A DNA stretch of 40,785 bases from Dehalococcoidia bacterium (GTDB lineage Bacteria > Chloroflexota > Dehalococcoidia > GIF9 > AB-539-J10), in contig JAUVZB010000019.1 in the NCBI GenBank assembly GCA_030602785.1, positions 1 to 40,785 of the forward strand, in the 5' to 3' direction. Positions 5,178 through 10,554 of the stretch are shown in pieces. A program made the translations under genes and the position numbers. The notes under the pieces are model-generated. The model was not told the DNA's origin. It made no database searches and worked only from the letters and a program-made list of their open reading frames with translations. Position 1 is the stretch's first letter. Each line of letters starts with the position of its first letter.

Positions 5178-5330
5178 AAAAAGAAACCCCAAGCAACCTT
5201 ACCAGGCGGGTTAGGGCCTGTCCCTCTGAGCTTTCGCCTTGCCCACTCCCACCATACGGATACAGTAGAAGCGTTTCAGCTATTGCCTGCTGGGCCTTTG
5301 GCCTTTCCCCTGAGCTCGATTGCTTGGGGT
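5178..5330 (-). ncRNA. Unrecognised structured small RNA, ~153 nt
   Basis: The region 4885-5536 has no credible protein gene but contains a self-contained RNA gene on the minus strand. The predicted start (~5330) falls right after a good promoter. The 5' end CCCCAAGCAA (5329-5320) is perfectly complementary to TTGCTTGGGG (5196-5187), giving a 10-bp helix that closes the whole molecule. This is followed at once by TTTCTTTTT (5186-5178), as in an intrinsic terminator. Inside are further helices: CGCUUCUAC pairs with GUGGGAGUG around a small loop, GGCC-AAA-GGCC, and CAGGC/GCCUG. The closing strand can also pair locally (AACC/GGTT), so two conformations are possible. I see no SRP, tmRNA, RNase P or tRNA signature. 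A 6S-like regulator is one option because of the end-pairing and size. Confidence 0.65.
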
Positions 5331-5337
5331 AATTGGT

Positions 5338-5366
5338 AAGCTAACATGCCAGGGTCCTTCTGTCAA
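5338..5366 (-). promoter_or_regulatory. Promoter of the small RNA
   Basis: On the minus strand a perfect -35 TTGACA (5361-5366) is followed after 17 bases by -10 TAGCTT (5338-5343). The expected start, about 7 bases later, coincides with the first base of the closing helix of the RNA at 5330. Confidence 0.65.
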
Positions 5367-5536: not shown

Positions 5537-6166
5537 TCAGTCGCTGAGCCGGCCACGCAACCTGGAATCCAGGAGCCGCCGTATCCGCCGGCCATCGGGA
5601 GGGTGGGTGAACTCGGGTCTGTCCCTGAAGCCGGAGTCGCGCAGTTCGCGGAGGGTCAACGCCATCACATCCTAGCCCACGTAGCGGGCTGCAACCCTGT
5701 CGGCTTCGTATTCGGCGGCCCAGCTCATGGCGGCAGCAGAAAGCACGAGCAACGCACCGCCAAGGACGAGGCGCCCGACAGTGGGAAAGCTCACAGCCAG
5801 ACCTGCGGCCACGCCCAGCACAGCCGCGAGCAGGCAACCCATCAGGAGGAGTTCCCAATGCCGGCACTTGAGGTGGGCCAGTTCATGAGCCAGCACGCCC
5901 TCCAGCGCGCCCGGCGACAGCTTCCTCGCCAGCGCGCCTCCCAGCCTGATACGCATGCCCCTCCGTCCGCGAATCGCGCACAGCGCCCTTGCGCCCAGCC
6001 AGGACGGGGCAATCTCCACAGGGAAGCTTGTATCGAGCCTCACGTTCATGCGGTCTGCGAGTTCAGACAGGCTCCCGGGAACATCGCTCCAACTCAAATC
6101 AACGACATCGTTGCCTTTTCCTGATGGGCCGGCGACGTGAAGCCTGATGATGTCCTGCCAGGTCAT
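5537..6166 (-). pseudogene. M48-type zinc peptidase interrupted by an in-frame amber stop
   Basis: The gene starts at the ATG at 6166, eight bases after GGAG. The translated part has the M48 zinc motif HELAH in LAHELAHLKCRHWE, then two hydrophobic segments, then the third ligand region EYEADRVAARYVG. A TAG codon at 5672-5674 stops it after 164 residues. The same frame then continues for 44 more codons (DVMALTLRELRDSGFRDR, HPPDGRRIRRLLDSRLRGR) to a TGA at 5537-5539. HPPxxxRIRRL is the usual C-terminal motif of M48 peptidases, so the stop interrupts a once complete 209-residue gene. The truncated product keeps all three metal ligands and might still be active. Membrane location is inferred from the hydrophobic segments. 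A sequencing error or a recent nonsense mutation (GAG to TAG is one step) are both possible. Confidence 0.75.
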
Positions 6167-6293
6167 AGTTGTTCTCCAGTATACATCGCCTGCACAGGCC
6201 GCCCGCCTTCGGGGCGGCGGCCACTCAAGACCACGCCTGAGGCGATGCCCTGCAGTGTGAGACGGCGTCCATAAGTTCCTCTCAGCACAAGAA

Positions 6294-6322
6294 GAGGGGG
6301 TGGGACTATTTCCCACCCCCTC
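6294..6322 (-). terminator. Intrinsic-type hairpin after the alpha-2-macroglobulin gene
   Basis: GAGGGGGTGGGA (6294-6305) and its exact complement (6311-6322) form a 12-bp stem with a 5-base loop. It begins 17 bases past the stop at 6339 on the minus strand. The bases after the stem on that strand (TTCTTGTGC) are only partly T-rich, but the stem is very strong. Confidence 0.7.
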
Positions 6323-6338
6323 CCAATGAAGACAGAAG

Positions 6339-9300
6339 TCAGCGTACTGTGACATCCTCCCCAAGCGTCTCCCCACTGAGCTCCGGGCTGTAGTAGGCGT
6401 AGGCCTTGGATGCAACCGCCTTTGCCTTCACAGGGTAGAGCGCCCTGGCCTTGAACTCGAGCGACACGCTCTCACCCTGCCTGAGGTTCTCTATGTAGAA
6501 GATGACCTTGCGCCCCGCCAGCTCGTAGCGCTTGAGGCGCTCGTCAGCCTCGACAGCGGCCTCAAGGGTGTCGGTGACCGCGGCGAAGCCGGTCGGGATG
6601 GAGATGTCCATGACCACCATACCCGCCTCCGCCGGCTGTGGCGGATTGAAGGTCAGCTTCGCGGACACCGTGATGGTGTCATCAACCTCCACCTCGGTGG
6701 TGTCGTAGTCCACTTCTATCTGGAGGATATTGAGGGTCTCAGACCCCACTTCCGGCAGGTTGAAACGCCGCACGACCTGGCCGACTGCCTTGCCCTTGCC
6801 GTCCACCGTCAGCTCGAATTCTTCGTTCACCGGCAGTTCGATAACCTGCAGCACGTCGAAGTTCTGCGACGTGATGGTGACGTCCTTCTTGAACCCTTCG
6901 CCGGCCACAGTGAGGTCAAGGTCCACGTCAGCGCGTCCGCCGCTCTGGTACTCGACAAGCGCCTGGATGCCAACGACCGTGTCCTGCGTAGAGCCGAAGC
7001 CCCCGTAGGAGTTCCGCTGGCTCGTAAGCCACTGGGCGGCTCGGGAGGCGTTGAAGGCGTCGCCGTGGAGCACGAGCGCCATCGTGGCGTAGCCCGTCAT
7101 CTCGATGGTGGCAGGACTCTGCTGCACAGGGTATGGCATGGATTCGCGCTCGCCTTCCAGCGGCACCATCGCGCTGCCCCAATACAGTCCGTTCTCGTCC
7201 TCGTTGGCGAGGTCCATCAGCTTCCGGTTGGCATCACCACGCTTCGGGCTCTTGCCAAGCTCCAGCGCATACGCGGTCAGGGCGACCGTGTACGCATCGT
7301 CCATTCCGCCCAGCCTGTCCTCAAGGTAGTCAACGGCCCTGCCGGACGCGTTCGTCTCGCCGGCCTCGATGAGCGCAACGGCGACGAACGCAGTCAGCGC
7401 ATCTTTGCCCTGGAGACCACCAAGGATCTCCTGGTGACAGATGAAGCCGACGGGGTCGAAGGAACCATCGCTGTTCTGGTGAGAGACAACCCACTCCTGC
7501 GCCTCGCGCAGGACCGTCTCGTCTATGTACATGAGGTCCTCCGCCTCCGAGAACGCCTTCAGGACGAAGGCCGTGAGCCACAGGCTTCCCTCCTGGTCGC
7601 TCTGGCCGAACGCGGAGAAGCTGCCATCGCTCCGGCGGTAGGTCAACTGCCGCTGGTAGCCCGTTATCATCATCTTCTCGGCCTTCGCCATTATCTCGGG
7701 CTTGAGCTGGCCGCTCTCTTCGAGGTACTTCGTGATGTAGACGTTCGGCGCGAAGAGCATCATGTTCTGCTCGCCGCAGCCAAAGGGCATCCGTATCAGC
7801 TCCTCGAGTCCTTCCATCGTCTGCGTGAGGAAGCTGGATGTGAGAGCCAGGTAGGCACGTCCGGAGCCCTCAACCGCCATCGGAGGGATGAACGTGCCGA
7901 TGTTCTTCGCATCACCGTCCGACAGCACGAGATTGTCCACGACCTCCCGTGACGCCCCCTCGGGCTCGATGATGATGGTCTTGCTCATGGCATCAGCGGC
8001 TGCCTGTCCCTGGGCCTTGACCTCGACCGGATTGATGCCCAGCTTCGTGGGACGGATGGTGAACGCGGCGGAGCCGAGGTCGTTGGGTCCTATGCGGACC
8101 ACCTGTACCGGGTCATCAAGGAGGTCGAACCAGTCGCCCTCCGTAATCTCAACCCGTATCTGCTGTTCCTCATCGAGGTAGTTGTATATGGCAACCGAGA
8201 CAGGGAACTCCTCGCCGCGTATGGCCGCGTATGGCAGGTCGACCTTCAGGAAGAAGGGTTGGAAGGCCCGCAACTGCGCCTCGGCCATTCCAAGTCCCTT
8301 TTCCTTGGAGATGCCTACAGCCCGCAGCATCCACGTCGTGATGGTGTCAGGCACCGTGACATCAAGCGATGCGCGCCCGTTGGAGCCGGTCTCGAGCTCC
8401 TCCCAGAGCCAGGTCTCGGGGAAGTACTGGCGGACTCGCTCAACCTCCACGAGCCCCTCTCCTCCCGGCATGCCCTGTTCAGGAACTGCCGAGGGCGCCA
8501 TGGCGCCGGCCTCCTCGTCCATCGCCATCTCAGCCTCTTCGACCATCAGGCCACCCTTGTTGAGCAGGCGGAAGAGCCCATCCCAGAAGCCTTCCTGGCC
8601 CTGCCATTCGAACTGCTTGCCCTCGGGGACATCGTGGTTGCTCAGCACAACGACGCCGGCATCCTCGAAAACCTCCGCAGCCCCCTTAGTCTCAATAACG
8701 GGGTAGATGTTGACCTCGTGCAACTCGGCCTGAGGGTCCATGTAAAGCCTTTCGAGCTCGGCAAAGACCTGCTGCAGATTGAGGCGGTTCTCGGCCAGTA
8801 TGAACACCGACTTGTCCACGGCGGCCAGGCCGACCCTCGCCTTGCCCTCGGTGCTGATGTTTATCTCGATATCATCGCCGGGCCTCGCCTCGTCCTCGCT
8901 GAACCCAACCTCGACGTTGTGCGGGTAGACCCCAGTAGCCTTGAACGGCAGGTAGTCAGCCGCGACTTCGCTGTTGGGGAGTATCTGGTACACGAGCAGT
9001 CTCGACGCCGGAGCCATCAGCGGTATGGTCTGGAAGGAGAACTCACTGTCCTTCGTGTATCCGGAGAATACGATGCGGTCGCGCGATACGACCTCGTAGT
9101 AGAAGTTCCGCGCCTCACTCGTCGAGTAGACCTTGAACTCGATGTCCTCACCCACCTGCGGCACGCCCTCACTGAGCTGCTCGATGTGAATGAAGTTACC
9201 GGAGGGCGAGTACGACGATTCGAGTTCCCGCTCCACGTACTTCCCCTCCGCGGTCGCTCTCACGGAGAGAGCGACCGCTCCCTTCGGCGGATTGCTCTCG

Positions 9301-10490
9301 AAGAGCGCCTTGCCGTCCTTCGTCTTCACATCGTCCTTCTCGGTCTTGATGTCCTTGAACTCCTCATCGAGATACGTGACCTCGATCTGCACCTTCGCGT
9401 CCACCGGCTGATTGTCGGGCGTCTCAGTGACCACGAGGAAGTTGAAGGCCAGGCCCGGCTTGAAGACGGCGCCCTCCGGAATGAGCTGCAGGTTCAGCGG
9501 TGAATCCGCCACTGTCAGGAGCCTCGCTGTCCGCTCCACGTAGCCGGTCACGTCCTCGGTGACCGTGATATCAAGCATGACATTGCCCTGGCCGCCAGCC
9601 TCGGGTACGCCCGCCACGTAGTCAGCCGCGGGTATCTCGAAGTCAGCGCTCCCGTCGATGTCAACAGTGAAGGTGGCGTACTCCTCCCACTCGCCGACGT
9701 AGCGCGACGCGACTATCTCCAGCTCGCCCTTCACAGGCTTGCCGAAGCTGTACTCCGAGGACACGCTGCCTTCAATAGGCTCGCTGACGAGGAACCACTC
9801 GCGCGGCAGCTCCATCTTGACCTCGTATTTCGGCAGTATGTAACGCTCGACGCGGACGTCGAGTTGCGTATCTGCCTTGTCCGTCAACGCCCGTATCTTC
9901 CAGACTCCGAGGTTCGGCTCGGACGACAGCGGCAGCTCAAGGCTCACCATGCCATACTCATCCGTCTCGACCTCTGTGCGGAAGATCTTGATCCCCTTCG
10001 CGTCGAGCACCTCTATGGTGACGTCCTCACGCAACGGCTTCAGCTCAGAGTCCAGAGTCATCGCACGCATGTGAATCGTCTGGCCGGGCTTGTAGATTGG
10101 CTTGTCCGTCTCGAGGAAAACAACGACGGGCTTGTCGATACGGACCGCTGCCTGCTGCTCAAAGCCCGTGCCCTTCACAACAACCGTGTAGTCTCCCTCT
10201 TCGACATCAGGTACGTTGAATTCCACGGTCCCCTTCCCATCCACCACCGCACTGGCTTTCGCAATCTCCTTGCCGCCCTGCAGAACACGGACCTCGACCC
10301 TGTCGCGGGCGGGGCCGTCGCTGCCAAAAAGGCTGAACGACACCGACTCCGTGCTCCCACTATGCAGTGTCTGCGGCACCAGCACGACGTAGCCTTCGGC
10401 AGCCTGCATCGGGCTACAGCCGGATGCGAATGGCAGCACAAGAGCACCGATAAGCAGGGCCGTTATCCCCAGCAACCATGTGCGTCTCAT
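6339..10490 (-). CDS. Alpha-2-macroglobulin family lipoprotein with thioester
   Basis: 1383 residues. AGGAGGG lies just before the ATG at 10490. The signal sequence ends in a lipobox with Cys25 (FASGC), so the protein is anchored outside the membrane. The MG2 domain is clear at about 120-215 (ETDKPIYKPGQTIHMRAM). A flexible Met/Glu/Ala/Pro-rich stretch at about 640-690 sits where the bait region should be. The A2M core follows (ETWLWEELETG near 690, then VPDTITTWMLRAVGISKEKG). The thioester is intact: PFGCGEQNMM with Cys905 and Gln908, followed by an all-helical thioester domain and a C-terminal receptor-binding-like beta domain from about 1270. Family members trap proteases: bait cleavage exposes the thioester, which bonds the attacker covalently. 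The architecture resembles animal A2M/C3 more than the E. coli YfhM type, and no penicillin-binding protein gene is adjacent. Confidence 0.95.
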   Translation of the reverse strand: MRRTWLLGITALLIGALVLPFASGCSPMQAAEGYVVLVPQTLHSGSTESVSFSLFGSDGPARDRVEVRVLQGGKEIAKASAVVDGKGTVEFNVPDVEEGDYTVVVKGTGFEQQAAVRIDKPVVVFLETDKPIYKPGQTIHMRAMTLDSELKPLREDVTIEVLDAKGIKIFRTEVETDEYGMVSLELPLSSEPNLGVWKIRALTDKADTQLDVRVERYILPKYEVKMELPREWFLVSEPIEGSVSSEYSFGKPVKGELEIVASRYVGEWEEYATFTVDIDGSADFEIPAADYVAGVPEAGGQGNVMLDITVTEDVTGYVERTARLLTVADSPLNLQLIPEGAVFKPGLAFNFLVVTETPDNQPVDAKVQIEVTYLDEEFKDIKTEKDDVKTKDGKALFESNPPKGAVALSVRATAEGKYVERELESSYSPSGNFIHIEQLSEGVPQVGEDIEFKVYSTSEARNFYYEVVSRDRIVFSGYTKDSEFSFQTIPLMAPASRLLVYQILPNSEVAADYLPFKATGVYPHNVEVGFSEDEARPGDDIEINISTEGKARVGLAAVDKSVFILAENRLNLQQVFAELERLYMDPQAELHEVNIYPVIETKGAAEVFEDAGVVVLSNHDVPEGKQFEWQGQEGFWDGLFRLLNKGGLMVEEAEMAMDEEAGAMAPSAVPEQGMPGGEGLVEVERVRQYFPETWLWEELETGSNGRASLDVTVPDTITTWMLRAVGISKEKGLGMAEAQLRAFQPFFLKVDLPYAAIRGEEFPVSVAIYNYLDEEQQIRVEITEGDWFDLLDDPVQVVRIGPNDLGSAAFTIRPTKLGINPVEVKAQGQAAADAMSKTIIIEPEGASREVVDNLVLSDGDAKNIGTFIPPMAVEGSGRAYLALTSSFLTQTMEGLEELIRMPFGCGEQNMMLFAPNVYITKYLEESGQLKPEIMAKAEKMMITGYQRQLTYRRSDGSFSAFGQSDQEGSLWLTAFVLKAFSEAEDLMYIDETVLREAQEWVVSHQNSDGSFDPVGFICHQEILGGLQGKDALTAFVAVALIEAGETNASGRAVDYLEDRLGGMDDAYTVALTAYALELGKSPKRGDANRKLMDLANEDENGLYWGSAMVPLEGERESMPYPVQQSPATIEMTGYATMALVLHGDAFNASRAAQWLTSQRNSYGGFGSTQDTVVGIQALVEYQSGGRADVDLDLTVAGEGFKKDVTITSQNFDVLQVIELPVNEEFELTVDGKGKAVGQVVRRFNLPEVGSETLNILQIEVDYDTTEVEVDDTITVSAKLTFNPPQPAEAGMVVMDISIPTGFAAVTDTLEAAVEADERLKRYELAGRKVIFYIENLRQGESVSLEFKARALYPVKAKAVASKAYAYYSPELSGETLGEDVTVR

Positions 10491-10554
10491 TGTCCCTCCT
10501 TCACCACTCATGGAATGTCCCTCGTCCCTGTAGGGCCGGAGCACTCTCTACTCA

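Follow-up and report, generated by a model that had tools for sequence, protein, structure and literature searches.

The window analysed here, a 40,785-nucleotide stretch of a Dehalococcoidia genome, carries on its minus strand an RNA gene of about 145 nucleotides with its own promoter (5330-5178), as delineated by folding and sequence comparison. We give a probability of roughly 0.6 to the reading that this gene belongs, as one of several paralogues, to a hitherto unrecognised family of free-standing structural RNAs that act in trans and bind protein, the binding being suggested by the architecture of the molecule. That these are genuine RNA genes we regard as close to certain. Each copy has a predicted sigma-70-type promoter, a predicted start that coincides with the first base of a terminal helix or adjoins it, and a T-tract. 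The copies are predicted to fold into a rod with almost only A and G in its loops, a design that is kept throughout the class Dehalococcoidia and also outside it, with 1 to 5 copies per genome. An earlier note, made from the single sequence, had described a self-contained structured RNA gene of unknown family. Conservation, covariation and the gene's own promoter and T-tract support that description; membership in a multi-copy, class-wide family lies beyond what a single sequence could reveal.

Structure of the gene

Read on the minus strand, TTGACA is followed by 17 bases, by TAGCTT and by 7 further bases, after which the terminal helix begins (Table 1). The promoter had been proposed in this form in the earlier note, and the comparison with relatives bears it out. 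TAGCTT alone is a weak -10 element that agrees with the consensus at three of six positions, and its weakness under the -10 rule of the consensus scanner explains why the scanner did not report this promoter; the call at the studied locus was settled by the relatives. The helix that joins the two ends, in which ACCCCAAGCAAUC pairs with GGUUGCUUGGGGU, is present as had been claimed and starts at 5330, but it comprises 13 bp, three pairs more than the 10 first described. It is followed directly by TTTCTTTT(T), in line with the earlier claim that the helix ends at a T-tract, and its 3' end passes without a gap into TTTCTTTTT.

Table 1. Features of the studied RNA gene, with positions counted from the first base of the window
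Feature	Position	Strand	Evidence
Structured RNA, about 145 nt plus T-tract; type-a paralogue	5178..5330	-	Kept in 7/7 genus genomes at 72-100% identity; covarying rod as consensus fold
-35 hexamer TTGACA	5361..5366	-	Invariant in 7/7 genus genomes; 34-38 nt upstream of the start in 127/137 family members
-10 element TAGCTT, inside TGTTAGCTT	5338..5343	-	17 bases past the -35; position kept in relatives, where it is commonly TGTGCTA..T
Terminal helix (13 bp), 5' strand	5318..5330	-	Double-sided compensatory changes at 12/13 pairs and 97.4% of cells paired, 137 members
Terminal helix (13 bp), 3' strand	5186..5198	-	Pairs with 5318-5330, with a probability near 1 for 12/13 pairs
T-tract; probable intrinsic terminator together with the terminal helix	5178..5185	-	Mean of 5.7 T in the 8 bases past the helix, 137 members
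Apical stem-loop with 9-bp G-U-containing stem	5244..5273	-	RNA pairs 58-66 with 79-87; 5 pairs with double-sided changes in the genus over the whole apical helix
GCUG/CGGC-type helix and purine-rich internal loop below the apical stem	5236..5280	-	Alignments; module enrichment in the wider family

The studied RNA folds better than its dinucleotide shuffles (z -3.9 and -4.4), as do three relatives (z -4.6 to -5.6). When folded alone, the 3' strand forms a local hairpin of -14.4 kcal/mol, and the earlier note had suggested that such alternative pairing of the closing strand would allow two conformations. We reject this alternative on the grounds that its probability within the whole RNA is close to zero and that, family-wide, such a hairpin occurs no more often than chance would predict (29 of 137 members, against 33-36 when shuffled).

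Conservation within the genus

A DNA search recovered the RNA from all six other genomes of the genus, and a degenerate pattern run over the GTDB genomes returned six records, all of them Dehalococcoidia bacterium metagenome-assembled genomes (MAGs). Across the genus alignment TTGACA does not vary, the position of the -10 element and the ends of the helix are kept, and similarity drops outside the gene. From the seven genus sequences RNAalifold predicts a single rod of 45 pairs, 7 of which show double-sided changes. Counted pair by pair, 7 pairs show such changes, compared with 3.3 in shuffles, and 95.6% of cells are paired, a proportion that falls to 31-51% when the strands are slid. The 9-bp stem with G-U pairs that the earlier note had pointed out forms part of the best-supported internal helix and has the support of covariation within the genus. 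The collection of homologous regions from relatives, one of the checks proposed in that note, thus yielded both conservation and compensatory changes.

Gene surroundings vary within the genus while the RNA is kept: A2M/M48 genes adjoin the studied locus, and POR/TPP-enzyme genes are found in G001. We therefore regard the RNA as independent of any neighbour.

A multi-copy family in Dehalococcoidia and beyond

Relatives in other genera and families were found with a first covariance model, built from the seven genus sequences. A second model (R2), built from 37 members, was run over 393 genomes of the class and 400 of the phylum; the E-values of such home-made models are rough. R2 matches 89 of the 393 class genomes, with 1 to 5 copies in each, so that either many lineages are without the RNA or the model misses them. 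The studied genome holds four paralogues (C21:5178-5330, which is the studied copy, C133:55194-55350, C119:5036-5184 and C78:2396-2478). Chloroflexota genomes outside Dehalococcoidia are matched as well, and most of the members read from them share the ends of the family and resemble it in their interior; one phylum-level match, G474, was discarded as a simple repeat. The helix pattern had no match in viral contigs.

The relatives share a common design, in which TTGACA and an often extended -10 element precede G(C/T)CCCAAGTAATCAAGC or a variant of it; next comes the interior, whose length varies, and then AAGGTTACTTGGGGC or a variant followed by the T-tract. The statistics rest on 137 distinct members drawn from 94 Dehalococcoidia genomes, mostly MAGs; these members were counted as if independent though they are related. 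In this set, double-sided changes in the terminal helix occupy 166 cells, against 43 +- 12 when shuffled, and sliding the strands by 1-3 reduces pairing to 33-53%. The lower helix, assessed in 37 members, has double-sided changes at 9 of 16 pairs, and the counted structure contains 42 double-sided cells compared with 18 when shuffled. The promoter lies outside the search model, so that its fixed distance from the start constitutes independent evidence. Matches of the covariance model on the reverse strand are weak (16-31 bits) and arise because the helix is nearly palindromic. We rejected the opposite-strand reading, given that promoter and T-tract are found on one strand only.

Members range in length from 75 to 196 nt, excluding the T-tract, and their interiors differ greatly between paralogues. 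The minimum-energy fold has a single hairpin loop in 118 of the 137, that is, it forms one rod. Internal loops are mostly small and symmetric, from 1x1 to 5x5, and the interior bases predicted to be unpaired are 51% A and 39% G, or 90% purine. Separately, the conserved strands CGGUA...UACCG could pair across the CCUGAGG/CUUCAGG helix to form a candidate pseudoknot at L199, L200, L203, L204, L206, L207, L210 and L213, loci that belong mostly to family f116 of the phylum.

In 65 of the 137 members (65 genomes) the next downstream gene is convergent and encodes the HPRT-like signature GYGLD; the two such neighbour proteins tested are GAF-phosphoribosyltransferase proteins. The same gene adjoins the RNA in G095 and G130, which are single-contig genomes of 1.4-1.5 Mb and 99% completeness. 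This shared neighbour argues for vertical descent of one ancestral locus. Since the nearest downstream gene is often convergent and the neighbourhood is variable, the RNA is not a leader. In G004, contig C18 (L055), three paralogues lie in tandem on the minus strand at 1501-1657, 1911-2066 and 2298-2454, each with a TTGACA promoter.

A recurrent bulged-G-like module

Among the short stem-loops of the 137 members, the commonest flanks are AGUA/GAA and GGUA/GAA. The corresponding module, [AG]GUA and GAA enclosing three base pairs and a loop, occurs in 42 of the 137, against 1.0 +- 1.1 in shuffles, and in none on the reverse strand. Strings of the GGUAGG and GCYGAA types are enriched (z 16-18); z-values for the module and the strings are too large because the members are related. 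Under the strict definition the module is degenerate or absent in the other 95 members, including the studied copy. There, the region from 5236 to 5280 corresponds to the position of the family's GAAA/AAGGUA-type module, and GCUGAAACG stands opposite GGGCAAGGC.

We take the [AG]GUA/GAA module, seen here as a sequence pattern alone, to be the sequence signature of the bulged-G or sarcin-ricin motif. The sarcin-ricin and loop E motifs of 23S and 5S rRNA likewise have an AGUA or GGUA strand opposite GAA and a cap formed by a short stem with a four-base loop. The spacing differs, with three base pairs between motif and loop in the family module and one in the 23S sarcin-ricin loop. Unlike its rRNA-borne counterparts, the module of the family sits in a small free-standing RNA.

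Comparison with known RNA families

No match to Rfam 15 falls on the RNA when the window is searched at gathering scores, and a permissive scan of the locus gave chance matches only. Covariance models for 6S, SRP and all of Rfam, which the earlier note had recommended running, matched no family at the locus. Scans for tRNA and tmRNA at the studied locus found none, the RNase P RNA model was likewise unmatched, and neither the small SRP RNA model (RF00169) nor the conserved SRP tip GGAAGGAAGCAG matches the studied RNA; the absence of SRP, tmRNA, RNase P and tRNA signatures thus holds as first described. In permissive Rfam scans of 55 loci, the matches were flanking tRNAs, a Moco riboswitch or hits well below cut-off. 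The open-paper literature on 6S, small and noncoding RNAs in Chloroflexi or Dehalococcoides yielded nothing about this RNA family. In the main text of an intergenic survey of 50 genomes, Dehalococcoides is mentioned only for an rdhA motif (PMC11109978).

Several other candidates were rejected. A riboswitch or cis-regulatory leader conflicts with the gene's own promoter and T-tract, with the convergent orientation of the commonest neighbour, and with the change of context inside the genus. A small protein-coding gene was dismissed on the basis that member lengths are spread over all three remainders modulo 3, that 19 members are without a complete start-to-stop frame, and that the longest frames are most commonly of at most 30 codons. 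The family resembles sponge RNAs of the CsrB/RsmZ type in its multi-copy state, its purine-rich loops and the presence of some GGA (plain GGA is slightly enriched, z 3.3). It differs from them in being depleted in the CsrA-like pattern ANGGA (149 occurrences against 177 +- 12 in shuffles, z -2.4), and we rejected a CsrA/RsmA-sequestering role. A Shine-Dalgarno decoy was rejected because AGGAG is depleted (z -4.0) and GGAGG occurs at chance level.

Rfam 6S RNA is above cut-off at G090:C227, G143:C114 and G120:C31 (L214-L216), and most of the class yields none. A bacterial Y RNA, which would bind Ro, a TROVE-domain protein, through its terminal stem, is a further candidate suggested by the paired ends and variable interiors.

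Function and rival explanations

In the protein-binding reading that we favour, the RNA would act in trans, bound by one conserved protein or complex. The terminal helix, as the most sequence-conserved part, would be its natural docking site, together with the recurring bulged-G-like modules. Non-canonical pairing within the purine loops may make the rod stiffer, and variants of the same particle would arise from paralogues that differ in their interiors. Protein binding appears likelier than antisense pairing because the molecule is largely paired and its loops suit non-canonical purine pairs. Arguing against such a particle, the interior varies between paralogues to a degree that is unusual for a single-function housekeeping RNA.

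The main rival is a 6S-like role, in which the family would be the Chloroflexota counterpart of 6S RNA (RF00013): a rod present in abundance, it would imitate an open promoter, bind the RNA polymerase holoenzyme and have no sequence similarity to the Rfam 6S family. The two have much in common: a free-standing gene with a strong promoter, a similar length (110-200 nt), a rod with paired ends and, at times, several copies. Furthermore, only 4 of 148 class genomes have an Rfam 6S match, and the studied genome has none. What keeps a 6S-like role alive is that 7 of the 13 members from outside the class open into a 12x11-nt loop directly above the terminal helix, a loop that resembles a central bubble. 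Within Dehalococcoidia, however, no large central bubble is seen: the median size of the largest two-sided loop is 5 nt, and loops of at least 9 nt on both sides occur in 4 of 137 members. Counter to this role, too, no member locus searched matches a 6S model, 6S loci are unmatched by R2, and one genome (G090, with 9% contamination) has both a 6S RNA above the Rfam cut-off and five family copies. We consider a 6S-like role unlikely. Less probable still is that the members are regulatory small RNAs that act by base pairing, each paralogue repressing or activating mRNAs of its own. The presence in one genome of several paralogues that keep promoter and ends but diverge in the interior would fit the latter, as would the tandem array of three copies in G004. 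Yet the small, mostly symmetric and 90% purine loops of a largely paired molecule make poor seeds, the Shine-Dalgarno-like strings are not enriched, and the sequences conserved family-wide are paired or lie within the structural module.

It is very improbable that the locus is an element acting at the level of DNA or transcript (a bidirectional terminator, a cis-regulatory leader or a mobile repeat) with no functional RNA product. Such an element could account for the frequent position between convergent genes, the T-tract end and the several copies per genome. It would not account for the conserved promoter that precedes 127 of 137 members, for compensatory changes in both terminal and internal helices, or for a one-sided T-tract, low copy number and the same gene alongside across the class. 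Hardly credible, finally, is replacement of the signal recognition particle RNA in the studied genus. This idea draws on the distribution of the Rfam small SRP RNA, which is above cut-off in 38 of 61 genomes of the order and in 0 of 7 of the genus, where the conserved tip is also absent at up to three mismatches. The family shares with bacterial small SRP RNA a rod of short helices and symmetric purine-rich loops, but lacks the GGAA-capped conserved domain IV, and its apical loop is variable. Moreover, many genomes of the order, among them G022, G023, G027 and G041, have both canonical SRP RNA and members of the family. The genus may instead carry a very divergent SRP RNA.

Returning to a protein-binding structural RNA, we suggest tentatively, and at less than even odds, that the gene is the founding example of a new Chloroflexota RNA-protein particle. 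An ancient free-standing RNA would have diversified into paralogues within genomes, and the terminal helix and sarcin-ricin-like modules, borne on an all-purine-looped rod, would attract a conserved binding partner; this might be a factor of translation or transcription whose usual target is a motif of this kind. A class-wide structured RNA with a strong promoter and up to five copies that stands outside Rfam would represent a notable annotation gap. If the family binds RNA polymerase, it could take the place of the recognised 6S RNA that most of the class apparently lacks; if it does not, it points to an unknown particle. The class Dehalococcoidia includes the cultured, organohalide-respiring Dehalococcoides lineage, and expression and the binding partner are therefore directly testable.

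Other observations at family loci

A molybdenum cofactor riboswitch (L038, 1814-1928) is located downstream of one family member, at a distance of about 150 bases. In the window itself, 6339-10544 on the minus strand encodes a bacterial alpha-2-macroglobulin of 1401 amino acids with thioester (TED), bait-region and receptor-binding domains, and this gene is adjoined by an M48-type peptidase frame at 5672-6415.
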